A stretch of DNA of 64,000 nucleotides from Marinomonas sp. UCMA 3892 (GTDB lineage Bacteria; Pseudomonadota; Gammaproteobacteria; Pseudomonadales; Marinomonadaceae). The position numbers were made by a program, and so were the translations under genes. Each line of letters begins with the position of its first letter. Within the stretch, counting starts at the first letter, position 1. Below are positions 3,511 through 31,649 of the stretch, piece after piece. The notes beneath the pieces were generated by a model, which was not told the origin of the DNA, ran no database searches, and saw nothing but the letters and a program-made list of their open reading frames with translations. The stretch lies in contig NZ_PTXN01000013.1 of NCBI RefSeq assembly GCF_012726345.1, positions 62,001 through 126,000 of the forward strand, given 5' to 3'.

Positions 3511-3513
3511 TGT

Positions 3514-5773
<2,260 letters not shown>

Positions 5774-8601: not shown

Positions 8602-8650
8602 TCCTAAGATTTATCTTTATAACTTAACCTAAGTAAAGAGACGAGATCCT

Positions 8651-11944: not shown

Positions 11945-12034
11945 GTTTAGTTATTTATGTCACCAGTGGTTGGGAATTAACCTCAAAGAGACTAAACGCT
12001 GTTTTATAGGCAAGTTGTTTATATAGGCAGGTAT

Positions 12035-12070
12035 AAAAAAACCGTGATTTAATCGATCACGGTTTTTTGT
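12035..12070. terminator. bidirectional rho-independent terminator
   Basis: Arms ACCGTGAT (12041-12048) and ATCACGGT (12056-12063) are flanked by an A run before and a T run after, so it works in both directions. It lies between the converging UPF0149 gene and the aminotransferase gene. Confidence 0.85.
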
Positions 12071-12090
12071 TTTAGAGCTCTGTTTTTAAA

Positions 12091-13287: not shown

Positions 13288-13466
13288 GATAGTTACGGGG
13301 TCCTTATTTTATGTCACAGGAAAATCACTGTGAATATAATTGTTGCTTGAGTAGCCTCTTCATTTTGCCGTTTTTATGACAAAATACAATGCAAGTGAGA
13401 GGGAAATTTCCTCAATACTGTAAAGAAAAAAAGACACCTAGTTTTTCCCCCTCAGCGAGCCAGTTT

Positions 13467-14651: not shown

Positions 14652-14775
14652 TCAATAAGTAAGTACACTGCGACAAATTCATTGATCTAACTACAAAAAC
14701 ACATCAATTGTGATTTGGTTATCTTAGAAAACTGCGTTACATTGCTAGACTATAAAGTGTAAAGGAATGGTCAGC

Positions 14776-15603
14776 ATGGAAGTCGCGCAGCGTTATTGGA
14801 TGTTAGAATTGATCGCCTTTTGGGAAGGGCAAATAAATACCAAACCACTAATGAGTGCTTTAGGTATCACGAGGCAAAGTGTCAGTCAGCTGCTTAAACA
14901 ATATCAGACCGATTTTCCAAACTCGTTAGACTATGACGCCAAACGAAAAGCCTACCAAATAACAGACCACTTCAAGCCGCACTATATTGACCAAACCGTG
15001 GATGAATACTTTGATTGGCTAAACTATGGCAAAATCCCTACGTTTTCTAATACCACTAGTGAATCCACCCAGCACAGAATCGAAGCCCTTGCGCGTTTTG
15101 TTTCACCGCAAGTCATGCGACCCTTATTAAAAGCCGTTAAAGACAAAACCGCAGTGGATTGCGAATATCTATCCGTTTCCAGTAGCGACCCGCAAGGCCG
15201 ACTAATTTATCCCCATAGCTTTGTTAAAACCGCCGGACGCTGGCATGTTCGTGCTTACTGCGACATGCGAAAGCAATTCCTCGACTTTGTACTAAGCCGC
15301 TTTCAGAGCGTCGATTACGATGGCAAAGCCAGCGAACACACCGAGCAACAAGACACCCTGTGGAACACCCAAGTTTCACTGATTCTTGCCCCAGATTCCC
15401 GCCTCACAGACAAGCAAAAAAGGGTGCTTGAAAACGACTACGGCATGACTGATAGCCAGCTTCACATCGCCACCCGCGCCGCCCTCGTCAAATACACCCT
15501 CGACGACTTACAGATCAAAACCAAAATGCTTGAAGCCAATCCGCAAGCCCAACAACTGGTATGTGTTAACTACGCCGACATAAAACAATGGTTATTTGAT
15601 TGA
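14776..15603 (+). CDS. WYL-domain transcriptional regulator
   Basis: A 275-residue protein with an N-terminal helix-turn-helix around residues 17-42 (LMSALGITRQSVSQLLKQY) and a central WYL-type domain with the stretch IYPHSFVKTAGRWHVRAYCD, a pattern used to sense ligands or nucleic acids. WYL regulators are often found with CRISPR-Cas loci. I choose the ATG at 14776 because AAAGGA lies at a good distance; an ATG at 14767 abuts that site. It is the first gene on the plus strand before cas1 and is the most likely regulator of the cas operon. Its last 60 bases recur at 16592. Confidence 0.78.
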   Translation: MEVAQRYWMLELIAFWEGQINTKPLMSALGITRQSVSQLLKQYQTDFPNSLDYDAKRKAYQITDHFKPHYIDQTVDEYFDWLNYGKIPTFSNTTSESTQHRIEALARFVSPQVMRPLLKAVKDKTAVDCEYLSVSSSDPQGRLIYPHSFVKTAGRWHVRAYCDMRKQFLDFVLSRFQSVDYDGKASEHTEQQDTLWNTQVSLILAPDSRLTDKQKRVLENDYGMTDSQLHIATRAALVKYTLDDLQIKTKMLEANPQAQQLVCVNYADIKQWLFD

Positions 15604-15610
15604 TAAACAT
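15541..15610 (+). repeat. direct repeat, copy 1 (3' end of the WYL gene)
   Basis: About 70 bases covering the end of the WYL gene and its stop recur at 16592-16661 with an offset of 1051 and roughly five mismatches; the stretch 15575-15609 is identical in both. This copy is the functional gene end. Confidence 0.85.
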
Positions 15611-15630
15611 CGTCAAATATGGACACAGGG

Positions 15631-15681
15631 GCAGACAATGAAACCCTTCTTACCATCTAGTTAAAAAGACCAAAGTATGAT
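15631..15681 (+). pseudogene. relic of a second cas1 start
   Basis: The bases around ATG 15638 match the start of cas1 at 16806. CAGACAATG is shared before and through the start codon, and translation gives MKPFLPSS then a stop, against MEQFSPSDMK in the intact gene. The match fades after about 45 bases. It follows copy 1 of the WYL 3' end just as the intact cas1 follows copy 2, but with a shortened spacer region. I read it as the remains of a duplicated cas1 that was lost. Confidence 0.6.
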
Positions 15682-15728
15682 TATGTTTAATTTTTATCAG
15701 ATCAAATCAACATTAAGGAGTGATGTTA

Positions 15729-16570
15729 ATGAAAAATGATATGACCCTATTTGAGGATTACCAAATCCGCCGTGTATATGATGAAGAGGCTGAAATCTGG
15801 TGGTTTTCGGTAATTGATATCATACAAGTGCTGACTCAACAGGCTGATTATCAAACCGCCAGAAAATATTGGAACAAACTAAAACAACGACTTACTAAGG
15901 AGGGAAGTCAGTCGGTGACAGATTGTCACCGACTGAAACTTCCTGCAGCGGATGGCAAAAAATATCTAACCGATGTTGCTACTGCTGAAACCTTGTTGCG
16001 CCTAGTGCAATCTGTACCCAGTCCCAAGGCCGAGCCTATAAAGCTTTGGTTGGCTAAGGTGGGTTATGAACGCATGCAAGAAATGGCAGACCCTTCCCGC
16101 TCGCTTGACCGAGCTCGGGAGACTTGGCAAAAGCATGGTCGCAGTGAAAAATGGATTCAGCAGCGTATGACAGGGCAAGAGACCCGTAATAAATTAACTG
16201 ATTATTGGGCTGATCACGATATCAAACAAGGTGAAGAATTTGCCATTCTCACCAAGAATGGGCAGATACCAGTATCAAGGCGCATAAAAACCTTAAAGGT
16301 CTGAAAAGCCAGAATCTGCGTGATCACATGAGTGAGGCGGAGTTAATTTTTACTGCTCTTGCAGAATTATCCACTCGACAGATTGCCGAAACCGAAGAGG
16401 CCACAGGGATGGATGAAAACAAAACTGCAGCCCTGGCGGGTGGTTCTATTGCCAAAAATGCCCGAAAGGATCTGGAAGCTAAAACAGGAAAAAAGGTGAT
16501 TACCTCCGATAACTACCTGCCACCTTCAAAAAATAAACGCATTAAGAAAGATGACGGTGACACAGAGTAA
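15729..16570 (+). pseudogene. BRO-N/DinD-like DNA-damage-inducible protein, frameshifted
   Basis: The first frame (15729-16304) encodes a BRO-N domain, with MTLFEDYQIRRVYDEEAEIWWFSVIDI at the start (in pieces) and the family block KLPAADGKKYLTDVA. It then has the GRSEKWIQQRM and NKLTDYWADHDI segments of the phage-derived BRO/DinD group. Near 16260-16280 the reading frame shifts: the second frame continues with SIKAHKNLKGLKSQNLRDHM and then AELIFTALAELSTRQIAE, which is the expected C-terminal half. A few residues also seem missing at the shift. AAGGAG at 15715 fits the ATG at 15729. Probably a mobile or phage-derived gene that broke after inserting upstream of cas1. Programmed frameshifting is not excluded but no slippery site is evident. 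Confidence 0.78.
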
Positions 16571-16589
16571 TGACCACTTTTGTCAGCCA
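16541..16589 (+). pseudogene. possible relic of the cas1 end and cas2-3 start
   Basis: This stretch resembles 17760-17811, the junction of cas1 and cas2-3. TAAG.AA.ATGAC and the final TTTGTCAGCCA are shared, and the small frame from 16571 reads MTTFVSH against MVTFVSQ in cas2-3. The similarity is gapped and short, so confidence is modest. It is directly followed by the second copy of the WYL 3' end. Confidence 0.4.
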
Positions 16590-16591
16590 CC

Positions 16592-16661
16592 CCCCAAGCC
16601 CAACAACTGGTGTGTGTTAACTATACCGACATAAAACAATGGTTATTTGATTGATAAACAC
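16592..16661 (+). repeat. direct repeat, copy 2 (truncated WYL 3' end)
   Basis: A fragment of the last 20 or so codons of the WYL gene, lacking the rest of that gene, placed between the broken BRO gene and cas1. It differs from copy 1 at about five positions and is non-coding here. Together with copy 1 it brackets the BRO insertion. Confidence 0.8.
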
Positions 16662-16686
16662 CATAAAACGCTGACATAGAGCAAAA

Positions 16687-16721
16687 CCTGTCAAATAACT
16701 TTACCTGTGTAAAACGACAGG
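16687..16721. promoter_or_regulatory. candidate control region upstream of cas1
   Basis: The stretch 16662-16805 before cas1 holds no gene. It includes an inverted pair CCTGTC (16687-16692) and GACAGG (16716-16721), with an extra ACCTGTGT between them. It could be an operator for the adjacent WYL regulator. I cannot place clear -35 and -10 boxes. This is a weak call. Confidence 0.25.
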
Positions 16722-16805
16722 GTTGTGGGGTAAGAAAAAGCACGGCACAGTGGAAGCAAGCCGGATAAACCAGAGCAAAATAGATAAAAATAAAAGGGAC
16801 AGACA

Positions 16806-17792
16806 ATGGAACAGTTCTCACCATCAGACATGAAAACCATATTGCACTCCAAGCGTGCCAATATGTATTACCTCGAATATTGCCGAGTCATGCAAAAAGA
16901 TGGTCGTGTGCTGTACCTTACCGAGGCGCAGAAAGAAAACCAGTATTTTAATATCCCCATTGCCAATACCACGGTGATTTTGCTTGGCAACGGCACGTCG
17001 ATCACCCAAGCCGCCATGCGTATGCTTGCTCAAGCTGGTGTGTTAGTTGGGTTTTGTGGTGGCGGTGGCACGCCTCTGTATATGGCGTGCGAAGTAGAAT
17101 GGTTTACCCCGCAAAGCGAATATCGACCTACCGAATACCTTCATGGTTGGTTGCAATTTTGGTTTGATAACGACAAACGCCTTGATGCAGCGAAAACTTT
17201 CCAGAAAGCGCGTCTTGATTACCTTGAACGTACTTGGACAAAAGACAAAGACTTAAAAGGCGAAGGCTTCGCCCTGCAAGATGTGGTATTACAATCGTCT
17301 TTCGAGACTTTTCATAACCGAACCGATGCCGCGACGAAACAATCCGATTTATTACTGACCGAAGCGCAACTCACCAAATCCCTTTACAAGTACGCCGCTA
17401 ATGCCGTACGCATTGAGGATTTCAAACGTCAGCATGACTCAAGCGACAAAGCCAACGACTTTCTAAACCATGGTAACTATCTCGCCTACGGCTTAGCCGC
17501 TTGTTGTTTGTGGGTGCTCGGCATTCCTCATGGTTTTGCCGTTATGCATGGCAAAACGCGTCGTGGGGCCTTGGTATTTGATGTGGCTGATTTGATCAAA
17601 GACGCCATCGTTTTGCCTTGGGCATTTGTCTGCGCTAAAGAAAACGCCACAGAACAAGAATTTCGCCAGCAAATTCTACAAAAATTCACTGACCATAAAG
17701 CCTTAGATTTTATGTTTGATACGGTCAAAAACATGGCATTAAACCTTGGTGATTTATCAAGTAAGCAAAATGACGAGGGTGCCGAACTATGA
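16806..17792 (+). CDS. cas1: CRISPR-associated endonuclease Cas1, subtype I-F
   Basis: The integrase that inserts new spacers, acting with Cas2-3. The 328-residue length is as in subtype I-F. The N-terminal beta-rich domain includes LLGNGTSITQAAMRMLAQAGVLVGFCGGG. The C-terminal catalytic domain has a conserved His in GFAVMHGKTRRGALVFDVADLIKDA and the metal-binding acidic residues in the same block. GGGACAGACA precedes the ATG as a weak ribosome-binding site. The stop overlaps the cas2-3 start in ATGA. All expected residues seem present, so it is likely active, in keeping with the very long array. Confidence 0.95.
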   Translation: MEQFSPSDMKTILHSKRANMYYLEYCRVMQKDGRVLYLTEAQKENQYFNIPIANTTVILLGNGTSITQAAMRMLAQAGVLVGFCGGGGTPLYMACEVEWFTPQSEYRPTEYLHGWLQFWFDNDKRLDAAKTFQKARLDYLERTWTKDKDLKGEGFALQDVVLQSSFETFHNRTDAATKQSDLLLTEAQLTKSLYKYAANAVRIEDFKRQHDSSDKANDFLNHGNYLAYGLAACCLWVLGIPHGFAVMHGKTRRGALVFDVADLIKDAIVLPWAFVCAKENATEQEFRQQILQKFTDHKALDFMFDTVKNMALNLGDLSSKQNDEGAEL

Positions 17793-20700
17793 TGGTGACC
17801 TTTGTCAGCCAGTGCGAAAAAAACTCTCTCAAAAAGACACGTCGAGTTTTAGATGCCTTTGCTAATCGCATTGGCGATAACACATGGCAAACCCTGATTA
17901 CCGAGGACGGGCTACTCACCGTTAAAAAAATGCTGCGTAAAACCGCCAGCAAAAACACCGCTGTGAGTTGTCACTGGATTCGTAGCCGTGCCAGAAGTGA
18001 ATTGTTGTGGATAGTGGGAAATCGATTGAAATTTAACGAGCAGGGCATTGTGCCGGTTAATACAACACGTAGAAATTTACTAAAAAGCGAAATAGAAAAC
18101 GATTGGTATTATTTGCCATTGATTAAAGCATTAACAAGCTTAGCAGCGCTTTTACACGACTGGGGGAAGGCGACTAAGCTCTTTCAGGAAAAGCTATCGC
18201 CAAAGAGCAAAAATAAGTTCAAAGGTGACCCAATCCGACACGAATGGATCTCGCTCTTATTGCTGCGCGCTTTTGTCCAAACAACCAATAGCGCAACGGA
18301 TGACGAATGGTTGGAAAAGCTTAACCAAGGGAATATTGACGAAGCGCAACTAAAGATACTGATTCAAAGCTCAGCATTAACCCCCTTGGCAAACCTACCG
18401 CCGATTGCCCAACTGGTCGCGTGGTTAATTGTTTCTCATCATCGCTTACCGTCTTTATCAAAAGATCAATCAAGGGACTACAAGGGCGAAAAAGCAGAAT
18501 CCATGAACGCCATGTTGCAACGTATTTCCCAACAATGGGGCTACGAAAATCGCCAAGACGAAGCAGAGTATCAAAAGCGTTTAAAAGGTTGTTTTAGTTT
18601 TCCAAATGGACTGTTAAGTAACTCTAGTCAATGGCTGAAAAACATAAAACGTTGGTCCAAGCATCTCATCGAAAATAAAACCTATGCGCTGCAAAGTATC
18701 GAAAATGGCAGTTATCGCTTGGTATTGAATCATGCTCGTTTGTGTTTAATGTTGGGTGATCATTATTACTCTTCCCAAGACGCCGCTAAAGGCTGGAAAG
18801 ACACCACAGGGTTGTTTGCCAATACAGACAAAACCACTCAAACATTCAAGCAAAAATTGGATGAACATCTCGTTGGCGTTGCAAGCCATGCGGCCAAAAT
18901 TGCCCACTTGCTCCCTGCTTTTGAAAAAGAGCCGCCTATTGCCGAAGATATTCAGGCGTTACGAAAACCCAGCCCTAAAGGGTTCCAGTGGCAAGATAAG
19001 GCAGTCAACAAAATAACGGAATACTACCGAAGCATTGAACCCAATAAGCTCAAACAAGGTTTTTTTGCCGTCAATATGGCCAGCACAGGCTGTGGCAAAA
19101 CCTTTGCCAACGCGAAAGTCATGCGAGCCTTATCTTTGGATCAGAAAAGCTTACGTTTTGTATTGGCGTTAGGGTTACGTACCTTAACGATACAAACAGG
19201 CCGAGAGTATCGAGAACGAGTTGGATTAGACGACAGCGAATTGGCCGTACTGATCGGTTCTAAAGCGGTCATGGAATTAGATCAGAGAAACCATGCGCTC
19301 AGCCAAGATCAAGAAAACCATGAGAGCCGAGGCTCAGAGTCACAAGAGTCGCTGTTAAACGAAGACATAGACTTTGATTGTGCCATTCCAGAGCATACAT
19401 TAACGACCGTGTTGACCAAGCAACGAGACAAACAGTTTCTTTATGCGCCCGTGCTTGCCTGTACGATAGATCATCTTATGTCGGCCACGGAAACCAAGCG
19501 GGGCGGACGTTACATACTACCGACCTTACGCCTTATGTCCTCAGATCTCGTGATCGATGAAATTGACGACTTCACCGGAGACGATTTAATCGCTATCGGT
19601 CGATTGATCCACTTAGCGGGCATGTTAGGACGAAAGGTCATGATTTCTTCCGCCACGATTCCGCCTCATATGGCTGAAGGCTACTTTAAAGCCTATCGGG
19701 ATGGTTGGCGTTTATATTGCAAAACACGTGACGCTAGCCCTGTTATCGGCTGCGCTTGGGTTGATGAATTCGCTACCAATGTGCATAGCAATAGTGCAGA
19801 AAACCTCGAAGACGCCATTCCCGTTTACCGAGAACATCATGCAGGTTTCATTAAAAAACGGGTAGAAAAGTTAACCAAGCAGCCAGCAAAACGCAAAGCA
19901 GATATTGCCTCTTGCCAAGCCATTATTGAGCAATATAAGACGCAAAAACAGCACGATGTGGAGGTTGTTGAGAACAAGCAAACAGCCTACTTTGATAGTA
20001 TTTTTCAACAAGCATGGTTTAAGCATAAAGCCCATTCTTTTAAAGACCCAGAAACTCAGATAAAAGTGTCTTTTGGCGTGGTTCGTATGGCGAACATCTC
20101 GCCTTGCGTCGCTCTGACCAAATATCTACTCGCTAAAGCATTACCCAATAATACCGAAGTGCGTGTCATGGCTTATCACAGCCAACAAGTCATGCTGCTG
20201 CGTTCTGAGCAAGAGCATCATCTAGATGTTGTGCTAAAACGCAAAGAAAAACCGGGCGAATTACCGGATGCTTTAAAAAATCCGGTCATTAGAAAACACT
20301 TGAATCGGGTACAACAAAACCAACCAGAAGTGAATAATGTGCTCTTTATTCTAGTCGCGACGCCAGTCGAAGAAGTAGGGCGAGATCATGATTTCGATTG
20401 GGCGGTGATTGAGCCTTCTTCCTATCGCGCTATTATTCAGCTGGCAGGGCGTGTAAAACGTCACCGAGAAGGCGAAGTGGATCAAGCTAATGTTGCCCTG
20501 ATGCAATACAACTGGAAGGGCATTCGTGATGCGCAGCAAGAAGGTCAAAAGGTGTTTAACCGTCCAGGCTTTGAGGAAAACATTACCCTTAAACATCATA
20601 ACCTTGATGCTCTGCTTGATGTTCAACAAATTGGCAAACGTCTGGATGCGATACCAAGGATTCAGCAGCCTGACCACTTAACCGCCAAATACATGCGCAG

Positions 20701-21187
20701 TTTAATAGAAACCGATAGCTTGTCGGAACTCGAACACATTGCCACTTGGCGATGGTTGGCAAACTATAAAAGCACAGGCAATGATGCCCAGACAGGCCCT
20801 CATACCTTACAGGGTTGGTTGAATCATCATTGGTTTTTGACCGCCTTGCCGCAAGTGCTGACACCATTTCGTCAAAGCCAAGCCAGCGTAAATACCTATC
20901 TGGTATTTAGTGAACCGCACCAAGCGAGCTTCTTCTGCGAGAAAGACGAAGAAGGCCATGCGATTAATCGAGAAGCCATACTCAATATTCGACGAGAATC
21001 GTTAGACGGTTCATCCATGGCAAGGCTTTGGCTAACACGCAACTTTGATCAAAGTTGTGCTGAGTTAGCGGTAGAAAAAGAGTTAAGCCAGAGAATTGCT
21101 TCTATGCGTTATGGAGAGCTGAACTTTCCTCATGACGAGAAAAAGCATTATGTCTACAACGACCAATTGGGATTGGTCAAAATTTAA
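17789..21187 (+). CDS. cas2-3: Cas2-Cas3 fusion nuclease-helicase, subtype I-F
   Basis: A 1132-residue fusion typical of subtype I-F. Residues 1 to about 100 form the Cas2-like domain starting MMVTFVSQCEKNSLKKTRRVL (in pieces). The HD nuclease follows, with LLHDWGKATKLF (His123-Asp124). The SF2 helicase has a Walker A STGCGKT with Lys437, the DEID box near residue 590, SSAT near 625 and the C-terminal VGRDHDFDWAVIE and QLAGRVKRH motifs. It degrades target DNA recruited by the Csy complex, and its Cas2 part bridges Cas1 dimers in adaptation. No key residue seems missing. It overlaps cas1 by four bases. Confidence 0.95.
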   Translation: MMVTFVSQCEKNSLKKTRRVLDAFANRIGDNTWQTLITEDGLLTVKKMLRKTASKNTAVSCHWIRSRARSELLWIVGNRLKFNEQGIVPVNTTRRNLLKSEIENDWYYLPLIKALTSLAALLHDWGKATKLFQEKLSPKSKNKFKGDPIRHEWISLLLLRAFVQTTNSATDDEWLEKLNQGNIDEAQLKILIQSSALTPLANLPPIAQLVAWLIVSHHRLPSLSKDQSRDYKGEKAESMNAMLQRISQQWGYENRQDEAEYQKRLKGCFSFPNGLLSNSSQWLKNIKRWSKHLIENKTYALQSIENGSYRLVLNHARLCLMLGDHYYSSQDAAKGWKDTTGLFANTDKTTQTFKQKLDEHLVGVASHAAKIAHLLPAFEKEPPIAEDIQALRKPSPKGFQWQDKAVNKITEYYRSIEPNKLKQGFFAVNMASTGCGKTFANAKVMRALSLDQKSLRFVLALGLRTLTIQTGREYRERVGLDDSELAVLIGSKAVMELDQRNHALSQDQENHESRGSESQESLLNEDIDFDCAIPEHTLTTVLTKQRDKQFLYAPVLACTIDHLMSATETKRGGRYILPTLRLMSSDLVIDEIDDFTGDDLIAIGRLIHLAGMLGRKVMISSATIPPHMAEGYFKAYRDGWRLYCKTRDASPVIGCAWVDEFATNVHSNSAENLEDAIPVYREHHAGFIKKRVEKLTKQPAKRKADIASCQAIIEQYKTQKQHDVEVVENKQTAYFDSIFQQAWFKHKAHSFKDPETQIKVSFGVVRMANISPCVALTKYLLAKALPNNTEVRVMAYHSQQVMLLRSEQEHHLDVVLKRKEKPGELPDALKNPVIRKHLNRVQQNQPEVNNVLFILVATPVEEVGRDHDFDWAVIEPSSYRAIIQLAGRVKRHREGEVDQANVALMQYNWKGIRDAQQEGQKVFNRPGFEENITLKHHNLDALLDVQQIGKRLDAIPRIQQPDHLTAKYMRSLIETDSLSELEHIATWRWLANYKSTGNDAQTGPHTLQGWLNHHWFLTALPQVLTPFRQSQASVNTYLVFSEPHQASFFCEKDEEGHAINREAILNIRRESLDGSSMARLWLTRNFDQSCAELAVEKELSQRIASMRYGELNFPHDEKKHYVYNDQLGLVKI

Positions 21188-21199: not shown

Positions 21200-22480
21200 A
21201 TGCAGGATTCAGCGATAGACGCTTTCTTTGAAGAAAGAAAAGCCGCTTGGCTAAAGAAAAACCTGAGCACATCCATGTCAGAACTGGAAGTCAAAGAGAA
21301 AGAGCACGAATGCGATAGCGTGTTTGCGCTAAAAAACTGGTTGCCGAATGCGGCAAAAAGAGCAGGGCAAATGTCTATCTCGACACACCCTTGTACTTTT
21401 AGTCACCCAAGTGCTCGTAAAAATAAAAATGGCTATGCCAGCGCCGTCATTGCGTCGAGCGAATCAAAAAATGATGGTTTTTTACGAACAGGCAATGTCG
21501 CCGTGGCGGCGGATGCCCTTGGTAATGCTGCCGCTCTTGACGTGTACAAGTTTCTAACACTCATCACCGACGATGGACAAAGCGTGCTACAACATTTGGA
21601 GCAAGATTCAGAGTTAGCACAAGTCTTACTTACCTTGCCAAATGTCGACGAAGAACACAGTTATCAGGCATTAAAACAAGGCTTTTTAGCCATGTCGGCC
21701 ACCGATGATGAGGTGATTACCAGCTCCAAAATCAAACAAGTCTACTTTCCTGTGTCAAAACAGCAAGGCGAAACGGACTATCATCAGTTATCGTTATTAA
21801 CCGCATCAGGGATTGTCTTCGAGCTGCGTCAGCGTCTCGATAACATGCGTTTTGGTGAGGAAATAAAAGCAGCGCGAACTAAGAAAAAAGACGGTGAATA
21901 CCACAGTGGTTTTCGTGAAATATACGATTTAACCACCATCGGCTACGGCGGTACTAAACCGCAAAATATCAGCGTATTGAATAATCAAAATGGGGGTAAG
22001 GCGCATCTATTAATGTCTGTGCCTCCGACGATAAAAAATCGTCATACGCATTTCCCCAAAGTCGATTTTTTTCAGCAAAGTGTGAATTACTTCCAATGTA
22101 AAGAACAGTTTCAGCAACTGCATTCACTCTATAAACACAACGAGAACAACATGCATGTTCGGGCGGATCGAGACGAACTGTATCAACAGATTATTGATCA
22201 CCTTATTGAAAAAATGTGGCAAGTAAGAGCGATAGCAAGCGAGCAGTACATAGAAACAGCAAGCCAGCTAAGCAAAGCGCAAACCACTTGGTTGTGTGAA
22301 CACACCAAAATGCTAAGAGAAACCACAGACGATTGGCTAGATGAAATCGTCGCATCGATTACCACTTACTTATTCTATGGCTACGAAAAAATGCTTGGTA
22401 AAAAAGCCATCAAATTAGGTAACGCGGAGTATCGCCAGATGGAAAAAGTAGCCGCAAATAACAAGGAGGCGCTGCGATGA
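21200..22480 (+). CDS. csy1: Csy1 (Cas8f), large subunit of the I-F Cascade
   Basis: The large subunit that recognises the PAM and holds the crRNA 5' handle with Csy2. The 426-residue length is close to known Csy1 proteins. The N-terminus DAFFEERKAAWLKK and the segment NAAKRAGQMSISTHPCTFSHPSARK are typical family blocks. GGAGGGAG lies just before the ATG. It begins 12 bases after cas2-3 and overlaps csy2 by four bases. Confidence 0.92.
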   Translation: MQDSAIDAFFEERKAAWLKKNLSTSMSELEVKEKEHECDSVFALKNWLPNAAKRAGQMSISTHPCTFSHPSARKNKNGYASAVIASSESKNDGFLRTGNVAVAADALGNAAALDVYKFLTLITDDGQSVLQHLEQDSELAQVLLTLPNVDEEHSYQALKQGFLAMSATDDEVITSSKIKQVYFPVSKQQGETDYHQLSLLTASGIVFELRQRLDNMRFGEEIKAARTKKKDGEYHSGFREIYDLTTIGYGGTKPQNISVLNNQNGGKAHLLMSVPPTIKNRHTHFPKVDFFQQSVNYFQCKEQFQQLHSLYKHNENNMHVRADRDELYQQIIDHLIEKMWQVRAIASEQYIETASQLSKAQTTWLCEHTKMLRETTDDWLDEIVASITTYLFYGYEKMLGKKAIKLGNAEYRQMEKVAANNKEALR

Positions 22481-23457
22481 GTGGAGAAATCAAGAAGCTA
22501 TTAATTATCCCGCACTTGCGCGTACACAACGCCAATGCCTTATCCAGCCCATTTACCATAGGCTTTCCCGCTATGACCGCATGGCTTGGGGCCGTTCACG
22601 CACTGCAACGACAACTTAATGGAAGGCAGTTTAATGGGAAAAGCATGTCAGTCGATTTTATCTCGACAGGTGTTGTCTGCCATGAACTTAATCTGCAAAC
22701 CCACAAAGGTGAAAATGACTTCGTCCACTCCATTATTGGTACGGGCAACCCGCTGGATAAAACAGGCGCGAGATCGTCTTTTATCGAAGAGGCTCGTTGC
22801 CACCTTGATGTCAGCTTGGTCATTCAGTTCGACAAGATTAGCATTGACGAACAAGAAGGCTTTCTTGCCGCCGTCACCCAGTTGCTTAACGCTCACATGA
22901 AAATAGCGGGTGGCGACATACAAGGCTTTAAGAAACCATTTTGCCTTGTGTGTGAAGAAGGTAATGATGAAGACATGAACAAAGTAAAGCGTGCCTTGAT
23001 GCCGGGTTATGTCTTGATTGAACGGCGAGAACTGATGGTAGACGCCATGGAAAATGGAGTAGATGCCATCGAAGCGCTTATTGATTATTTAGCGATTCAC
23101 CACTCTTGTGATCGTCTAATAGACGAGGAAAACAAAGAAACCATCGAATGGCGTAGACATCGCAAACTGGTCAATGACAAACCCGCAGGGTGGCTTGTTC
23201 CCATCGCGACAGGCTTTTATGCCATTAGCGAGCTAGGCGAAGCGAAAAACCAGCGAGACCCAGACGTGCCACACCGTTTCGCGGAAAGCATGGTCACCTT
23301 AGGGGAGTTCAAAATGCCCCATCGACTGAAAAGAATAGAAGACATGTTATGGCGTTATCACACAGAGGGCGATTCATACCTTTGTCATCAAACGTCTCAT
23401 GCACATTTATCATCGGCAGCATTGGTTGCCGATGAAGACGACGATTCAGAATTTTAA
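22477..23457 (+). CDS. csy2: Csy2 (Cas5f), I-F Cascade subunit
   Basis: A RAMP-type protein that pairs with Csy1 at the crRNA 5' handle. The 326 residues begin KKLLIIPHLRVHNANALSSPFTIGFPAMTAW, a characteristic Csy2 N-terminus (quoted in two overlapping parts: LLIIPHLRVHNANA and SSPFTIGFPAMTAW). The C-terminal GWLVPIATGFYAISELGE is also conserved. Start and csy1 stop overlap in ATGA, indicating coupled translation. Confidence 0.92.
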   Translation: MSGEIKKLLIIPHLRVHNANALSSPFTIGFPAMTAWLGAVHALQRQLNGRQFNGKSMSVDFISTGVVCHELNLQTHKGENDFVHSIIGTGNPLDKTGARSSFIEEARCHLDVSLVIQFDKISIDEQEGFLAAVTQLLNAHMKIAGGDIQGFKKPFCLVCEEGNDEDMNKVKRALMPGYVLIERRELMVDAMENGVDAIEALIDYLAIHHSCDRLIDEENKETIEWRRHRKLVNDKPAGWLVPIATGFYAISELGEAKNQRDPDVPHRFAESMVTLGEFKMPHRLKRIEDMLWRYHTEGDSYLCHQTSHAHLSSAALVADEDDDSEF

Positions 23458-23484
23458 TCAAACCACTCAAAAAGGATATTTAAC

Positions 23485-24513
23485 ATGGCTAAAAATGATA
23501 ACAACACGGCTTCCGTATTGGCATTTGAGAAAAAACTAGTACTAAGCGATGGCTACATGTATGGCGCAACCTGGGCTGATCGTAGTCAAATCTCGCCGTT
23601 AGCATTAAAGGAAAAATCGGTACGAGGCACTATTTCTAATCGATTAAAAGCAGCGGTTAAAAATGATCCTGCCAAGCTCAATGCCGAAGTGGAAAAAGCT
23701 AACCTACAACGAGTGGATGTATGTTCATTGGATCTAGACCAAGACACATTGAACTTACAATTCAGTGTAAAAGTGCTGGGTGGCATCGCCAAACCATCGG
23801 CTTGTAACAATGCGAATTTTAAGAAAAGTTATAGCGAAGCGGCCAATGCTTATATAGAAAAGCACGGATTCAACGAATTGGCGCGTCGCTACGCCACGAA
23901 CATCGCCAATGCTCGTTTCTTATGGCGTAACCGTGTTGGCGCTGAAAAAATTGAAGTGAATGTCATCGCAAAAAATAGCACAGTAAATGAGTCATGGACA
24001 TTTGATGCCACTCAAATCAGCACTCGTCATTTTGACACCCAAGACGCAAAAATCGATCAACTTGCCAACGTCATTGCCCAAGCCTTAGCCAGTGAAGATG
24101 ACTTTATCTTGCTGGAAATTAGCTGCTTTGCACTGATGGGCCGCGCTCAAGAAGTGTACCCAAGTGAAGAGCTAGTCTTGGATAAAGGCAAAGGCCAAAA
24201 GAGCAAAATTCTATATCACGTGAATGATGTAGCGGCAATGCACTCTCAAAAACTGGGCAATGCTTTGCGTACCATCGATACTTGGTATCCTGAGCATAAT
24301 GATCCAGAACTGTCCGTTGGCCCTATCGCCGTTGAGCCTTACGGCGCCGTCACCAACCTTGGTAAAGCCTTCCGTACACCAAAAGACAAACAAGACTTTT
24401 ATACCTTCTTTGATGGATGGGCTCGCGGTGAAACATTAAACCGACCAGAAGATGAGCACTACGTCATGGCAACATTGGTTCGTGGTGGTGTATTCGGAGA
24501 GAGCGATAAATAA
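23485..24513 (+). CDS. csy3: Csy3 (Cas7f), backbone subunit of the I-F Cascade
   Basis: The backbone subunit, expected in six copies along the spacer part of the crRNA. The 342 residues include the early VLAFEKKLVLSDGYMYGATW block (read as two parts), NFKKSYSEAANAYIEKHGF, and ANARFLWRNRVGAEKI, all typical of Csy3. AAAAAGGATATTTAAC before the ATG is a good ribosome-binding site, in keeping with the high copy number of the subunit. It lies 27 bases after csy2. Confidence 0.93.
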   Translation: MAKNDNNTASVLAFEKKLVLSDGYMYGATWADRSQISPLALKEKSVRGTISNRLKAAVKNDPAKLNAEVEKANLQRVDVCSLDLDQDTLNLQFSVKVLGGIAKPSACNNANFKKSYSEAANAYIEKHGFNELARRYATNIANARFLWRNRVGAEKIEVNVIAKNSTVNESWTFDATQISTRHFDTQDAKIDQLANVIAQALASEDDFILLEISCFALMGRAQEVYPSEELVLDKGKGQKSKILYHVNDVAAMHSQKLGNALRTIDTWYPEHNDPELSVGPIAVEPYGAVTNLGKAFRTPKDKQDFYTFFDGWARGETLNRPEDEHYVMATLVRGGVFGESDK

Positions 24514-24523
24514 GGAGCAGGTT

Positions 24524-25123
24524 ATGAAGCATTACATAGACATAACCTTGCTACCTAGTGACGACATCGGCGTTCACTTTTTGTGGTCCAAGCTCATGAT
24601 GCAAGTGCACCTTGCTCTCGTGGAAATTCAAGATGACCAAAAGCAAGTGCCTGTTGCCGTGAGCTTTCCCAAATACCAAACAAGTGGAAATGAAAAACTC
24701 GGTTTTGTTGGCAACAAGCTTAGACTGTTTGCGAATGATAAAAACGACCTTGAGCGTTTGAATCTTGGGAAATGGCTAAACCGTCTTGAAGACTATGTTC
24801 ACATAAAAAGCATTGCTGAGGTACCGAGTGACGTCGTGGGCTATGAGTCGTTTAACCGTCGCCGTAAATCAGGCGCGCCTGATAAACACATAAAACGCCG
24901 CATGCAACGCCACAACGAAACACTGGAGCAAGCGGCAGAATTTTTTAAAGGTTATAACATGGCAAGAGAAGATAAAGCCTTACCCTTTATCAGAATGAAA
25001 AGCCTACACAGCGACAATGAGTTTTGTATGAGTATCATTCGAAAAGAGGCCGTACCATCGAACAGTAGTGTCATGTTCAATACTTATGGGTTAAGTGCAA
25101 AAGGTGTTTTACCTAAGTTTTAA
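24524..25123 (+). CDS. csy4: Csy4 (Cas6f), crRNA-processing endoribonuclease
   Basis: Cuts the array transcript at the base of each repeat hairpin and stays bound to the 3' end of the crRNA. I choose the ATG at 24524, preceded by TAAGGAGCAGGTT, giving 199 residues; a longer open frame upstream overlaps csy3 and is not real. The start MKHYIDITLLPSDDIGVHFLW is typical (read MKHYIDITLL and PSDDIGVHFLW). A histidine falls at residue 29, the position of the catalytic His in the Pseudomonas enzyme. The last cas gene before the leader. Confidence 0.93.
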   Translation: MKHYIDITLLPSDDIGVHFLWSKLMMQVHLALVEIQDDQKQVPVAVSFPKYQTSGNEKLGFVGNKLRLFANDKNDLERLNLGKWLNRLEDYVHIKSIAEVPSDVVGYESFNRRRKSGAPDKHIKRRMQRHNETLEQAAEFFKGYNMAREDKALPFIRMKSLHSDNEFCMSIIRKEAVPSNSSVMFNTYGLSAKGVLPKF

Positions 25124-25253: not shown

Positions 25254-26722
25254 GTTTGCCGCCGAGCACGCGGCTTAGAAATTCAAAGGAGATAGAAGAG
25301 GCGGTATGAACGCGTTTGCCGCCGAGCACGCGGCTTAGAAATATCTATGGTAATGACCTCTCTACTAACATTCGTTTGCCGCCGAGCACGCGGCTTAGAA
25401 ATTACTGGTTTCTCTCGTATGGCTACGCCTATCGTTTGCCGCCGAGCACGCGGCTTAGAAAGCTACTGCTATGCAACTTAAAAATCTCGAAGCGTTTGCC
25501 GCCGAGCACGCGGCTTAGAAATATTATGGACAATCTCCGTATGGAAACTTTCTGTTTGCCGCCGAGCACGCGGCTTAGAAATCATGAAAAAGCCTTAAAT
25601 CATGGTAATGCGCGTTTGCCGCCGAGCACGCGGCTTAGAAAGTAAGGGCGCAAGTCGCACTCATAAAAAAAATGTTTGCCGCCGAGCACGCGGCTTAGAA
25701 ATATGACTTTAAAACTTGACGGCAACGGCCTACGTTTGCCGCCGAGCACGCGGCTTAGAAAATAAAGTGCCTCGTAATTAACAAGCAGCTTTGGTTTGCC
25801 GCCGAGCACGCGGCTTAGAAACTCCTGCGGTAATTCCAAAATCTGAGGCGTCCGGTTTGCCGCCGAGCACGCGGCTTAGAAATTGAAGATCATCATCCAG
25901 ATGTTGTGTTTATAGTTTGCCGCCGAGCACGCGGCTTAGAAAGAGACCGATAACATTTAATTACCGATTTATTAGTTTGCCGCCGAGCACGCGGCTTAGA
26001 AATTCTGCTCTTCGTAAACGCTTTGGTAATGATCGTTTGCCGCCGAGCACGCGGCTTAGAAACTACGGAAAAAATAAAAAGAACAGCTCAAGAAGTTTGC
26101 CGCCGAGCACGCGGCTTAGAAACACAACACGCCCACAACACGCCCACAGTATCTGTTTGCCGCCGAGCACGCGGCTTAGAAAGACGCCAGCACTTTAGAG
26201 TATCTTGGAGAGGTGTTTGCCGCCGAGCACGCGGCTTAGAAATCCCAAAATGCGGGTAATATATATCTTGTGGTGTTTGCCGCCGAGCACGCGGCTTAGA
26301 AATACTCCACTACAAAGAAAGCCGCCGCAATGATGTTTGCCGCCGAGCACGCGGCTTAGAAAATAGAAAGCACCTCCTCGGCAACGGTTCCAACGTTTGC
26401 CGCCGAGCACGCGGCTTAGAAAATATAACACCAAAAGAAATTGTAGAAGAAAAAGTTTGCCGCCGAGCACGCGGCTTAGAAAGTTAAGTACCCACACAGC
26501 ACCAGCTAAGCCAAGTTTGCCGCCGAGCACGCGGCTTAGAAATATCACGATTACGATAGATGGTAATGTTGGCGGTTTGCCGCCGAGCACGCGGCTTAGA
26601 AATGACGCGTCTAGCGCTCTAACTCGTGCCATTAGTTTGCCGCCGAGCACGCGGCTTAGAAAAAGGCTTAGCACGTAAGCGCCAAACTCTTTAAGTTTGC
26701 CGCCGAGCACGCGGCTTAGAAA

Positions 26723-26754
26723 AAGCAGCCCAATCCAGTCTATGTTTGACTCTG
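26723..26754 (+). repeat. spacer with a near twin at 29723-29754
   Basis: This spacer and the one at 29723-29754 agree at 30 of 32 positions; they differ at spacer positions 6 and 28. On the opposite strand one frame reads ESNIDWIGLL for both, with both differences synonymous. They are 50 units apart and so were acquired at different times or from different genomes. Confidence 0.9.
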
Positions 26755-28942
26755 GTTTGCCGCCGAGCACGCGGCTTAGAAATACCGCCCCAGTAGCTGA
26801 CAAGCTTGATCCAAGTTTGCCGCCGAGCACGCGGCTTAGAAAGAGCGTGTGCAGTCTATCGCAGTGAGTTATGAGTTTGCCGCCGAGCACGCGGCTTAGA
26901 AATCAAAGCCCGACAAAGAAATTGAACAAATCAAGTTTGCCGCCGAGCACGCGGCTTAGAAAGCCCAACACCATAAAGTTTTAGTTCTTCACTCGTTTGC
27001 CGCCGAGCACGCGGCTTAGAAATCTTTGTATCCGTCGACCAAGTCGCCAGTAACGTTTGCCGCCGAGCACGCGGCTTAGAAACAGCAAACTAAAAACGGC
27101 GGTTGAATGGGCCCGGTTTGCCGCCGAGCACGCGGCTTAGAAACAATGGAAAGTGCAATAGTGCTTGGTAATGATGTTTGCCGCCGAGCACGCGGCTTAG
27201 AAATGAATGGAAAGACCGCAAGAGTGATTGGCTTTGTTTGCCGCCGAGCACGCGGCTTAGAAAGTCTTCACCGTCTTCACCGTGTTCTTGTTCAGGTTTG
27301 CCGCCGAGCACGCGGCTTAGAAAGCCTACGGTATTTGTGCCGCCCGTATTCGTGGGTTTGCCGCCGAGCACGCGGCTTAGAAATACGTCCGCCGCTTCCT
27401 CAACAATCACGTCTAGTTTGCCGCCGAGCACGCGGCTTAGAAAGCATACAGCGAGGAAGTCAAACCTTTAGAATGGTTTGCCGCCGAGCACGCGGCTTAG
27501 AAAATGATCTAAAGCGAGAGAATGCAGTTTGCAACGTTTGCCGCCGAGCACGCGGCTTAGAAATATTCAAGACCCCAACGCTTCCGCTGCAAAATGTTTG
27601 CCGCCGAGCACGCGGCTTAGAAAGTTAGACGGTGCGGTGTAATTACCGAACACCGGTTTGCCGCCGAGCACGCGGCTTAGAAAAAAAGCAGTTTGATGTT
27701 TTTCGTGAAAACCTAGTTTGCCGCCGAGCACGCGGCTTAGAAAATATTTACGAGCGCGGCGCCATACTTTGCCCGGTTTGCCGCCGAGCACGCGGCTTAG
27801 AAAGAAGCAGTGCAGGAACCTAGCAAGTGTAAATGGTTTGCCGCCGAGCACGCGGCTTAGAAATTTTAGCGTTCTTTTTCTTTTCCGATCCTTGAGTTTG
27901 CCGCCGAGCACGCGGCTTAGAAATGTAGGCGTCTTTGCTGCCAAGAAAATGATGTGTTTGCCGCCGAGCACGCGGCTTAGAAAGTCTAGTGTTATTGTTG
28001 GTTTATAGATGGCTTGTTTGCCGCCGAGCACGCGGCTTAGAAATTGTTAAAGTCGGCTTGCAGTATGTCGCGATAGTTTGCCGCCGAGCACGCGGCTTAG
28101 AAATTTTTAGTGTTTTTTTGATTGTTTTGCAATTTGTTTGCCGCCGAGCACGCGGCTTAGAAAAATAGCCGCCCCAATTGAGCCATAATCCGTACGTTTG
28201 CCGCCGAGCACGCGGCTTAGAAAAAGCGACAACAACCCAACCAGCGAATATGTAAGTTTGCCGCCGAGCACGCGGCTTAGAAAAACAACAAAATCATTCT
28301 TATCATCGTTCCACGGTTTGCCGCCGAGCACGCGGCTTAGAAATGTATGTCGTTTTACATAGTGCTGATCATTCGGTTTGCCGCCGAGCACGCGGCTTAG
28401 AAAGTTCGAAATTCTGTAAAACTGCAATGGTTTTAGTTTGCCGCCGAGCACGCGGCTTAGAAAATTGACGTGTTTTTCCATGTCGTCATAAGGGTGTTTG
28501 CCGCCGAGCACGCGGCTTAGAAATTAATGAGTATTATTTGATTATCGAATTTTGGGTTTGCCGCCGAGCACGCGGCTTAGAAAGTACGTAGATGCTGTGT
28601 GTAAATGGTGGGAAAGTTTGCCGCCGAGCACGCGGCTTAGAAACACACGATAAAGCCGAAACGATTGTTCGATTTGTTTGCCGCCGAGCACGCGGCTTAG
28701 AAAATCATGACAAGATCAGAGCCAGACACAGACACGTTTGCCGCCGAGCACGCGGCTTAGAAACAATTGTGGAAGTTACGCGACAGGTGTCATGGGTTTG
28801 CCGCCGAGCACGCGGCTTAGAAAATCGAGATAAACGTTTTTTAGTACATTGCTAGTTTGCCGCCGAGCACGCGGCTTAGAAAGTATCCAGAGCGTCGCTT
28901 GCTGCTTCGTTTTTGTTTGCCGCCGAGCACGCGGCTTAGAAA

Positions 28943-29034
28943 GTGCGAACGATCAAAAGTAGAACGTTGAATATGTTTGCCGCCGAGCACGCGGCTTAGA
29001 AAGGCATCAGCAAGTGCAGAAAGAAACGTCGAAT
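28943..29034 (+). repeat. two-spacer segment duplicated at 29183-29274
   Basis: Two adjacent spacers with the repeat between them recur exactly at 29183-29274. Two unrelated spacers (29063 and 29123) lie between the copies, so the order is S1 S2 A B S1 S2. Identity of both spacers and their order shows duplication inside the array rather than repeated uptake. Confidence 0.95.
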
Positions 29035-29182
29035 GTTTGCCGCCGAGCACGCGGCTTAGAAAGCTCATGCTCGTGAAGTTGCTGATTTTGAAAAGTTTGC
29101 CGCCGAGCACGCGGCTTAGAAAATAACGCTCCAAAAACGGGCTTATACATCATTGTTTGCCGCCGAGCACGCGGCTTAGAAA

Positions 29183-29274
29183 GTGCGAACGATCAAAAGT
29201 AGAACGTTGAATATGTTTGCCGCCGAGCACGCGGCTTAGAAAGGCATCAGCAAGTGCAGAAAGAAACGTCGAAT
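29183..29274 (+). repeat. second copy of the duplicated two-spacer segment
   Basis: Identical to 28943-29034 including the internal repeat. As the leader-distal copy it is likely the older one. Confidence 0.95.
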
Positions 29275-29722
29275 GTTTGCCGCCGAGCACGCGGCTTAGA
29301 AAATATTGGGACACTTGCGACTTATTCGAACTTAGTTTGCCGCCGAGCACGCGGCTTAGAAAATCACCACCCCACAAACAAAAAAAAGCCGGATGTTTGC
29401 CGCCGAGCACGCGGCTTAGAAATGAAACCTCTACATTGCTCACAGTGTTTTCATGTTTGCCGCCGAGCACGCGGCTTAGAAAGTGTTCTAAACATGGCGG
29501 CGGCGTTAGGGTATGTTTGCCGCCGAGCACGCGGCTTAGAAAAACCCGAGCGCCGTCGAAGTCTCGCCCGCACTGTTTGCCGCCGAGCACGCGGCTTAGA
29601 AATCAAAGTCACCGTACCCAGCCTTCACGAGGCTGTTTGCCGCCGAGCACGCGGCTTAGAAAGCCCAACGTACGCGCCTATTTATGTTCGCCTTGTTTGC
29701 CGCCGAGCACGCGGCTTAGAAA

Positions 29723-29754
29723 AAGCAACCCAATCCAGTCTATGTTTGATTCTG
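29723..29754 (+). repeat. near twin of the spacer at 26723
   Basis: Differs from the spacer at 26723-26754 only at positions 6 (A for G) and 28 (T for C). Being leader-distal it was acquired earlier. Confidence 0.9.
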
Positions 29755-30971
29755 GTTTGCCGCCGAGCACGCGGCTTAGAAACTAAACTAAACCCACGCA
29801 TAGCGCCGAAATCAGTTTGCCGCCGAGCACGCGGCTTAGAAAATGAGCGTCTAATATTCTTGTAACAAGATTTCGTTTGCCGCCGAGCACGCGGCTTAGA
29901 AATGAATACGCAGGGCTTCGCACCACGGAAGACCGTTTGCCGCCGAGCACGCGGCTTAGAAATCGGTTAAGCTCAAATAATGAGACTCACCGTTGTTTGC
30001 CGCCGAGCACGCGGCTTAGAAACGCGAGTTTGTCGGATTGCACCTCGTTCCGGTGTTCGCCGCCGAGCACGCGGCTTAGAAACCATTGAGCAAAGGTTTC
30101 TAAGTTGTTGTGCAGTTCGCCGCCGAGCACGCGGCTTAGAAATTGGTCAGTGATGTAGGCGTTAATATTGGTTAGTTCGCCGCCGAGCACGCAGCTTAGA
30201 AATAAGTCTGAAATCTTGCCTAACCAACTAGCCAGTTCGCCGCCGAGCACGCGGCTTAGAAATTATTCAAGAATGCTACTCAATAAGATATTTTGTTCGC
30301 CGCCGAGCACGCGGCTTAGAAAACCAGTTGAGAAAACTCCGCATCATCAAAAGCGTTCGCCGCCGAGCACGCGGCTTAGAAAATAAGAAACAACCTCAGC
30401 AGACTGAACCACAAGTTCGCCGCCGAGCACGCGGCTTAGAAAAGAAACCGACTTTGAGTTAGAAGACCGTGTTTGTTCGCCGCCGAGCACGCGGCTTAGA
30501 AAAATTCGGAATCGTCGCGCAAATGTTCAGGGATGTTCGCCGCCGAGCACGCGGCTTAGAAACTTGTTTGCGCCGCTTTGGTATGTTGCTTCTTGTTCGC
30601 CGCCGAGCACGCGGCTTAGAAAATCTGTAGAAAAATTTGCAGAATCATATATTTGTTCGCCGCCGAGCACGCGGCTTAGAAAGTTAGGTAGAAGCTCTAT
30701 TGTGACTGTGGGCGGTTCGCCGCCGAGCACGCGGCTTAGAAGTGCACCATGAATAGTGTTGTAGTACTTCTTCCGTTCGCCGCCGAGCACGCGGCTTAGA
30801 AATCAATGACTTGATAGGGTCGGTTTCGATCGCGGTTCGCCGCCGAGCACGCGGCTTAGAAAGTTAGTTACTGGATGGAACGTCCATTGCATGAGTTCGC
30901 CGCCGAGCACGCGGCTTAGAAAGATACCAGCATCTCCACCGCGCAAAACATTATGTTCGCCGCCGAACAGG

Positions 30972-31260
30972 CGGCTTAGAAATTCGCTATCGTCGTCCGT
31001 TCGGGACAGTGTGACTTCACCGCCGAACAGGCGGCTTAGAAATGCTTAACCTTCCCGCTTAAATCCTTCTGCCACTTCACCGCCGAACAGGCGGCTTAGA
31101 AAGCTATACAGAAAAAACACACCTAAACAAAAGACTTCACCGCCGAACAGGCGGCTTAGAAAACATGCAGTTGCCCTGCGGTTTTTGATTTCGACTTCAC
31201 CGCCGAACAGGCGGCTTAGAAAATAGATGTTCAAAAAACATCAGGAAATGAAATCTTCAT
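30972..31260 (+). repeat. array block with ancestral-type repeats
   Basis: Five spacers (30983-31254) are flanked on both sides by repeat halves of a second type: GAACAGGCGG before and CTTCA after. Four full repeats of this type lie inside (31015, 31075, 31135, 31195). The boundary repeats at 30955 and 31255 are hybrids: one has the GTTCG start with a GAACAGG centre, the other a CTTCAT start with a GAGCACG centre. Confidence 0.9.
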
Positions 31261-31649
31261 CGCCGAGCACGCGGCTTAGAAAGCAACATGGACACACCAA
31301 GACAACATCACGAGGTTCGCCGCCGAGCACGCGGCTTAGAAAAAGACCAATCCTATTTATTCTCAGCAAGTGAAGTTCGCCGCTGAGCACGCGGCTTAGA
31401 AAGTTTAGCGATGCCTTAGTTACCACATCAATAAGTTCGCCGCCGAGCACGCGGCTTAGAAAGACAAAAAAGAAGAAGCTCAATACCGCACCGAGTTCGC
31501 CGCCGAGCAAGCGGCTTAGAAAAAATTGAAACTCACCAAGCGCAAGCATTACATGTTCACCGCCGAACAGGCGGTTTAGAAAATGTAGATAAATAAATTA
31601 ATAGGGTAGAATGCACGAGATTATTCATCCTATTAAAGGGAGCTATGTG

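Follow-up and report, generated by a model that had tools for sequence, protein, structure and literature searches.

A Bro-N gene flanked by cas gene relics in the WYL/cas1 gap of a Marinomonas type I-F CRISPR-Cas locus

The stretch of DNA analysed here (the window) comprises 64,000 nt of Marinomonas sp. UCMA 3892 (contig NZ_PTXN01000013.1, positions 62,001-126,000, forward strand; its genome is G000 in what follows). The list of open reading frames (ORFs) and Pfam matches revealed in it a type I-F locus of clustered regularly interspaced short palindromic repeats (CRISPR) that reads WYL regulator, broken BRO gene, cas1, cas2-3, csy1-4 and array. The BRO gene, which carries a Bro-N domain and occupies the gap between WYL and cas1, is the subject of this work. 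Its frame is split into two pieces (15720-16304 and 16328-16570), with the break near 16.25 kb. An earlier reading of the window made from its letters alone (the sequence-only reading) had described BRO as a gene that was later frameshifted, in agreement with the intact frame of its counterpart in L025, the corresponding locus of G028, the genome of a second species of the genus.

An unguided repeat search of the window yielded two direct repeats on either side of BRO: D1, of 95 nt (15534-15628 and 16585-16679, 85% identity), and D4, of 31 nt (15627-15657 and 16795-16825, 84%). They bear out the sequence-only reading in that the WYL 3′ end is doubled, that a relic of the cas1 start follows the first copy and that a cas2-3 start lies behind BRO. 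That reading had itself proposed a comparison of the relics with shuffled sequence, for which we used dinucleotide-preserving shuffles, 2000 per test. For the cas1-start relic aligned with the start of the intact gene, 1 of 2000 shuffles equalled the window score and 0 of 2000 that of L025 in G028. For the cas2-3-start relic, compared with the intact cas2-3 start of the window, the counts were 2 of 2000 (window) and 0 of 2000 (L025). The window figures, coming from single tests on chosen stretches, are modest by themselves. The relics are secure because the homologous site of G028 has MITFVSQ and a cas1-start relic free of an early stop.

The insert is bounded by two short joints. The 10-mer TCTCACCATC, at the left joint, is common to the resident cas1 start and to the cas1 end of a donor-type operon described below, and the two relics that precede BRO overlap over a TCTCACCATC-like 10-mer. 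The right joint is formed by the 5-mer AGCCA, which the start of cas2-3 shares with the end of the resident WYL gene. The target between the joint points is found on both sides of the insert, copy 1 being shorter than copy 2 by 117 nt in the window and by 101 nt in L025. Within a genome, the WYL-end copies are alike at 67/73 and 70/73 positions, versus 63-64/73 between genomes. As to signs of a transposon or integron cassette, none of nine inverted-repeat pairs lay at the insert ends, and no recombinase was found by Pfam among the four ORFs scanned from WYL to cas1. A search of NCBIfam gave no match for four proteins.

The intergenic region of copy 2 contains a conserved dyad that is probably the cas operator. 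Its pattern occurred in the window and, of 83 loci scanned, in ten, every one of them from the genus. LexA-like arms match at 8/8 positions in this dyad before cas1, versus at most 5/8 on the 5′ side of BRO; LexA or the WYL protein may bind the dyad. Since copy 1 is shortened and lacks the dyad, BRO probably reads on from WYL; copy 2 would retain the full control region for cas1. The coordinates of all these features are given in Table 1.

Table 1. Features of the type I-F locus in the window (positions of the 64,000-nt stretch)
Feature	Coordinates	Strand	Basis
WYL-domain regulator gene, 5′ of the cas operon	14767..15603	+	ORF; PF13280 1.5e-11; PADLOC CAS-associated WYL model 1.8e-14
Target copy 1: WYL 3′ end, shortened intergenic region, cas1 start	15534..15657	+	Repeats D1 and D4; alignment with copy 2
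Resident cas1-start relic	15638..15657	+	Repeats, shuffle test; homologous relic in L025
Putative foreign cas1 3′ tail relic and spacer before BRO	15648..15722	+	Match to L109 cas1 end
BRO gene (Bro-N)	15723..16570 (frame 15720-16570)	+	PF02498 4.1e-08 (first piece); PADLOC PDC-S13 (intact relative)
cas2-3 start relic, overlapping the BRO stop codon	16570..16589	+	Sequence, shuffle test
Target copy 2: WYL 3′ end, full intergenic region, intact cas1 start	16585..16825	+	Repeats, alignment
Conserved dyad CTGT-N8-ACAG within CCTGT...ACAG, predicted cas operator	16687..16720	+	Missing from copy 1
cas1, type I-F	16806..17792	+	PF01867 5.6e-13
cas2-3, type I-F	17789..21187	+	PF21384 6.2e-41
csy1-csy2-csy3-csy4 effector genes	21200..25123	+	PF09611, PF09614, PF09615, PF09618
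CRISPR array, 106 repeats, layered repeat types	25254..31582	+	Repeat analysis

BRO was present in two of the 35 genus genomes searched, G000 and G028; 13 genus genomes found later fall outside this genome-wide protein search, and the I-F loci of all 19 cas1-positive genus genomes were inspected. On a 3.65-Mb contig of G028, L025 reads WYL, intact BRO, cas2-3-start relic, WYL 3′ end, cas1 and cas2-3, with the joints as in the window. Counted from the AGCCA joint, its two WYL ends agree over 58 nt without a difference; immediately left of the joint they diverge. The cas genes behind this cassette have diverged from those of the window, with 57% identity in cas1 and 38% in cas2-3. At the DNA level, identity between the window and L025 is 78% in the upstream methyltransferase gene, 82% in WYL, 83% in the relic stretch, 72% in cas1 and 90% in BRO (95% in its last half). 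The WYL match ends 118-186 bp from the cas1 start in 11 of 12 loci compared, the twelfth being L025; this gap is too short for a BRO gene.

A contig of a metagenome-assembled genome, L109, reads cas1-BRO-cas2-3 start and holds the closest BRO relative (96% identity), with an intact frame, among the matches listed, at least 522 in number. The stretch between the cas1-start relic and BRO matches the cas1 end of L109 and the spacer behind it with a score of 61 in the window and of 65 in L025, reached in each case by 0 of 2000 shuffles. When the L025 relic was compared with 203 loci (L200 and L207 included), L109 scored 63 and all others, apart from L025 itself, scored 33 or less; in an earlier run with fewer loci, the same relic scored 107 against the window. 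The letters after the cas1-start relic thus appear to be the 3′ tail of a different cas1 followed by a spacer, rather than the resident cas1 reaching a stop, and we discarded the resident gene as the source of the relic interior because the tail relic matches L109 only among the 203 loci. The sequence-only reading had supposed that a WYL-cas1-cas2-3 unit was duplicated in tandem and that BRO replaced the cas1 body in one copy. The doubling of the WYL 3′ end and of the cas1 start survives from this proposal, whereas the interior does not: what is left would be a resident cas1 start joined to a foreign cas1 tail. L109 also has an arrangement of its own at 7858-8620, where the first 43 nt of cas2-3 are doubled (40/43) around a PIN-domain gene; we take the cas genes behind that gene to be type I-C, although the cas1 of the contig is I-F-like.

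We confirmed at least 522 BRO relatives and kept the best 80, nine of which lie in CRISPR operons. BRO stands behind cas1 in the type I-F loci L109 and L113, the latter reading cas1-BRO-KilA-N scrap-ORF6N-cas2-3, and behind csy4 in L114, where a repeat array is present. Two further loci, L200 and L207, read cas1-BRO-cas2-3, and in both the stop codon of BRO overlaps the start of cas2-3. In I-C-like operons, BRO lies between cas4 and cas1, with RhuM before cas4 (L110, L111 and L116), or before cas4 (L156, L166 and L170), and in L111 its stop overlaps the cas1 start. The labels I-C and I-E are assumed from gene order, and Pfam checks of neighbours were limited to Cas4, Cas1, Cas7 and Csy4. At least 13 of the best 80 adjoin matches to type I restriction-modification (R-M) genes (L118, L119, L123, L124, L125, L133, L136-L139, L150, L154 and L161), as judged with few Hsd queries at E up to 1e-6 and in some cases at 25-35% identity; the BRO relative lies between hsdS and hsdR in L137 and L150.

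In a BRO tree of 81 rows, five I-F rows (L109, L025, L113, L200 and L207) and three I-C rows (L110, L111 and L116) form a clade (98/95) in which no context other than CRISPR operons occurs. BRO adjoins cas1 in seven of these eight members, with a KilA-N scrap between the two in L200; L025 has the relic stretch in this place. Separate CRISPR groups on the tree are L114 with L217, and L156, L166 and L170 with L187 (no context assigned). The I-F label requires 3 changes on the tree versus 6.9 in shuffles and the I-C label 3 versus 5.9, a value as low being reached in 0 of 500 shuffles for each. KilA-N scraps are found beside BRO between cas1 and cas2-3 in L200 (3312-3465, by eye) and L113 (7888-7995, by blast), which suggests turnover of cargo at one site.

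Type I-F cas1 was detected in 64 of 390 genomes of the order, 19 of 48 of the genus and 43 of 369 of the class. Among the positives, we fetched 60 of the 63 order genomes other than the window's own (all except G045, G078 and G095) and 40 of the 41 new class genomes (all except G484). Junctions were counted by tblastn with the Cas proteins of the window and L025; very divergent Csy loci drop out of these counts, and the number of loci varies by junction. Among 107 loci having both genes (106 or 107 by slightly different rules), 16 had more than 150 bp between cas1 and cas2-3, versus 0 of 60 for csy1/csy2, 0 of 74 for csy2/csy3 and 0 of 72 for csy3/csy4; cas2-3/csy1 is wide in general (42 of 76 opened, median 230). 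The cargo at cas1/cas2-3 consists of BRO (L200, L207), KilA-N (L026, L203, truncated in L028), RhuM (L058), a YhcG nuclease with a KilA-N scrap (L054), PIN-type ORFs (L060 and L201 by Pfam, L196 and L206 by resemblance) and a WYL regulator (L194); cas1 is split in L225, and the content is unexplained in L071, L076 and L193. With the few Bro-N, KilA-N, RhuM and ORF6N queries used, distant cargo can be missed. These results show that the cas1/cas2-3 spot repeatedly takes in extra genes.

Bro-N, KilA-N or RhuM genes stand at or beside the operon in 6 of the 19 genus genomes (G000, G028, G024, G022, G018 and G026), a count that takes in the window's own genome and RhuM genes upstream of WYL or cas1. 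KilA-N lies between cas1 and cas2-3 in two of them, whole in G024 and truncated in G022, and the RhuM gene of G026 carries an internal stop. The corresponding figures at the operon were 3 of 60 fetched genomes of the order (G028 again, G066 and G400) and 4 of 40 of the class (G644, G572, G489 and G754). Across 78 cas1-positive genomes, 4 of 47 RhuM, 2 of 20 KilA-N and 2 of 29 Bro-N hits fell within 5 kb of I-F cas1, versus expectations of ~0.1, ~0.05 and ~0.07, respectively (10 kb out of 4.2 Mb); insertions shared by related genomes make the number of independent events smaller than these counts. Most genes of the three families are located elsewhere in the genomes. Toxin-antitoxin pairs were seen in some of the widest gaps between cas2-3 and csy1, namely PIN with a MazE-type antitoxin (L063) and CcdAB (L218). 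In L035 of G023 (oriented positions 11671-13307), a KilA-N gene lies directly upstream of a distant cas1, presumably type I-E, about 8 kb from a truncated I-F cas1.

A PADLOC scan with the intact L025 copy of BRO, in place of the broken window copy, gave a match to PDC-S13 at 9.5e-122 over residues 3-279, which spans the full length of the profile. As for embedding in operons of other systems, BRO itself lies in the WYL/cas1 gap in the window and L025, and its relatives lie in CRISPR and R-M operons. The KilA-N genes match PDC-S22, and the RhuM and ORF6N genes PDC-S05. The PADLOC candidates, chosen by 'guilt-by-embedding', reportedly go back to a 2024 preprint by Payne et al. Third codon positions account for 68 of 91 BRO differences between the window and L025, and for 77 of 93 between L109 and L025. 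Mean column identity is 79% among 44 aligned relatives, which come from several phyla and from the best 80 of at least 522. BRO thus looks to be under selection, given this identity and changes that fall mainly at third positions. A search of solved structures with BRO returned a single match at E = 1, of no use.

Matching plasmid records numbered 13, all below 60% identity. Phage-gene capture, as put forward in the sequence-only reading, is weak as a recent event, with matches in 4 of 50,697 phage records, all below 51% identity, although the phage protein family PHROG 15286 matches at 5e-94. The same reading had called the gene DinD. E. coli DinD resembles BRO in length (274 and 285 residues); a single comparison of the two gave 29% identity over 98 residues (E 6e-4), and with likeness limited to 98 of 285 residues this identity is unsupported.

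We consider the chances about even that BRO is an accessory, probably abortive, antiphage defence gene, which would serve as a fallback should CRISPR fail. An abortive role is favoured because RhuM has been proposed as a toxin in R-M operons (PMC3710099) and BstA, which has a KilA-N-like domain, causes abortive infection (PMC8585504).

The best explanation of the locus, to which we give a probability of roughly 0.65, is that a scrap of a foreign I-F operon lies in the WYL/cas1 gap and that BRO is its accessory, probably abortive, defence gene. The origin of the insert as an operon scrap is fairly well supported. A piece consisting of cas1 3′ tail, BRO and cas2-3 head of another type I-F operon would have entered the WYL/cas1 gap of the resident I-F locus between the short-homology joints, TCTCACCATC on the left and AGCCA on the right, with duplication of the target. 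BRO probably brought pieces of its own cas operon, because the relic tail is foreign and BRO lies between cas1 and cas2-3 in L109, L200, L207 and L113. At least one lineage would have had the cas module to the right of the cassette exchanged, since the same joints are followed by cas1 genes only 57% identical in G000 and G028; in the lineage of the window, BRO was frameshifted. We infer this order of events, as we do the co-transcription with WYL and the abortive action.

Nearest to the sequence-only reading is a resident tandem duplication, in which a WYL-cas1-BRO-cas2-3 arrangement with a chimeric cas1 was doubled by unequal exchange at AGCCA, the first cas1 being lost afterwards between the 10-mers and the second BRO during the exchange of the cas module. 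The joints fit this course equally well, the KilA-N genes of G024 and G022 show that such an order is possible in the genus, and the finding of two cas lineages behind one cassette speaks for module exchange. However, this course presupposes that a resident cas1 had an L109-type tail, of which none was seen among the inspected genus loci, and that the second BRO was lost separately, and we hold it to be possible but doubtful. Unlikely, in our judgement, is a metastable or mobile cassette, whose 60-95 bp WYL direct repeats would let RecA loop out a circle that re-enters the WYL end of another strain; such mobility is compatible with the operon-scrap account and independent of which cas module follows. 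It would suit the presence of the same cassette before two very different cas modules and the greater likeness of the WYL copies within a genome than between genomes, but gene conversion accounts for that likeness, and no circle or empty sister strain was seen, with the cassette in the two genomes out of 35 searched.

Among accounts of what BRO does, a CRISPR-repressed toxin of the CrePA kind would be kept off by Cascade acting with a crRNA-like RNA, and anti-CRISPRs would lift this repression. CrePA likewise ties a toxin with a phage-type DNA-binding domain to CRISPR, and CreP is typically a KilA-N protein (PMC12737573), a family represented among the cargo of the cas1 edge. BRO, by contrast, has Bro-N and lacks KilA-N, and the window, searched by repeat similarity alone, yielded no creA-like repeat near it: the best degenerate repeat in 11-25.25 kb matched at 17/28 versus 16-20 in 20 single-letter shuffles. 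In L200 and L207, moreover, the overlap of the BRO stop with the cas2-3 start would have BRO expressed with the operon. We therefore rejected membership of CrePA for BRO and regard the toxin account as very improbable. It is also rather improbable that BRO is neutral debris, a selfish or random gene decaying in a non-essential gap, as the frameshift in the window, the internal stop in the RhuM of G026 and the truncated KilA-N of G022 might suggest; constraint is indicated by the third-position bias, the column identity, the stop-start overlaps and the sampled clade confined to CRISPR operons. A further reading, likewise unlikely, makes the cas1 edge a dedicated docking site in types I-F and I-C, the BRO clade a partner of adaptation and the cassette of the window and G028 one that hops by WYL-repeat recombination; a Bro-N protein might, for example, bind invading or damaged DNA and feed Cas1 or halt growth during spacer acquisition.

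Several observations weigh against the operon-scrap account with BRO as a defence gene. The joint 10-mer TCTCACCATC is a 9/10 match in the relics of both the window and L025, and with the cassette in two genomes only, the succession of events has to be deduced from end states. L109 comes from a metagenome-assembled contig whose species label may be a binning error. When the 15 other cas1/cas2-3 inserts were examined for a duplicated cas2-3 start or cas1 end, none scored at a level reached by 2 or fewer of 500 shuffles (the lowest being 12 of 500, for the cas1 end in L026), a level attained by L109 alone, and the duplication in the window is therefore no general signature of insertion. The window BRO has a divergent patch, with 23 differences from L025 in 60 columns, and is therefore a mosaic. 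The fold model is confident for the Bro-N part and poor for the C-terminal half, with a mean predicted local distance difference test (pLDDT) value of 60.5. On the tree, the R-M label, which L132 owes to its own unchecked neighbour ORF, is unclustered (12 changes, shuffled mean 12.4, 238 of 500 shuffles as low), so that embedding may be opportunistic. The clade confined to CRISPR operons is partly a matter of sampling, as L025, L200 and L207 (and, outside the clade, L217) were added to the tree on account of their origin in I-F loci; the label 'other' rests on a search that did not cover all systems, and any label will cluster among close relatives. Finally, no experiment on a PDC-S13 member was found in the literature covered.

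The PDC phage-defence candidates have been described (PMC12988326), and the genes studied here share with PDC-S13, PDC-S22 and PDC-S05 a position inside operons of other defence systems. They differ in that the host operon is CRISPR-Cas, the site is the cas1 edge, the sampled BRO clade occurs in CRISPR operons only and the window copy would be a transplanted scrap. RhuM ORFs lie between cas1 and cas9 in the type II-C locus of B. fragilis (PMC5704556), and RhuM-family genes are thus inserted beside cas1 there as well; the CRISPR type is another, and the available part of that source makes no mention of Bro-N, KilA-N, relic joints or a junction survey. In the hsdS-hsdR hotspot of type I R-M islands, defence genes are embedded at one junction of a defence operon (PMC12255303), the place where the BRO relatives of L137 and L150 sit; the operon is R-M instead of CRISPR adaptation genes. 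We found no publication that joins KilA-N, CRISPR and RhuM in a search that left bioRxiv preprints and most subscription journals outside, and we make no claim that the cas1-edge pattern is unpublished. Embedded genes are already used to predict new defences, and a BRO family with members that stay beside adaptation genes across types I-F and I-C offers a tangible candidate for an accessory of CRISPR systems. Taken together, the joints, the layering of the array and the presence of both an intact and a broken copy suggest a route by which a single chromosomal site trades genes of this sort and entire cas modules.

From csy4 outward, the array consists of 80 repeats of type one, then mostly a second type, four repeats of the G032 type (31015-31195), a return to the second type and, last, a variant end repeat. 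The repeat in those four units is the one used in G032, G222, G026 and G030, which have the other cas lineage, and also in G022, which does not. The arrays of G018, G012 and G417 are layered alike, with the CTTCACC type away from csy4. G022 has cas2-3 and csy genes 80-88% identical to those of the window and yet carries the CTTCACC repeat throughout, so there is no strict correspondence between repeat type and cas lineage. The layering fits a replacement of the cas module in which the old array tail was kept, and this would explain one cassette before two cas lineages. When the array spacers were compared with the window, no match to BRO was found with an E cutoff of 1; beyond the array itself, the longest match is that of spacer 11 to cas2-3 at 20211-20233 (23 nt, 2 mismatches). 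Within the array, a 240-bp block of about four repeat-spacer units is repeated at 28913-29483. In L022 of G018 (oriented positions 2989-5396), cas1 is 95% and the first 98 residues of cas2-3 are 91% identical to the window's and a different effector set follows, which points to an exchange near the border of the Cas2 and Cas3 domains.

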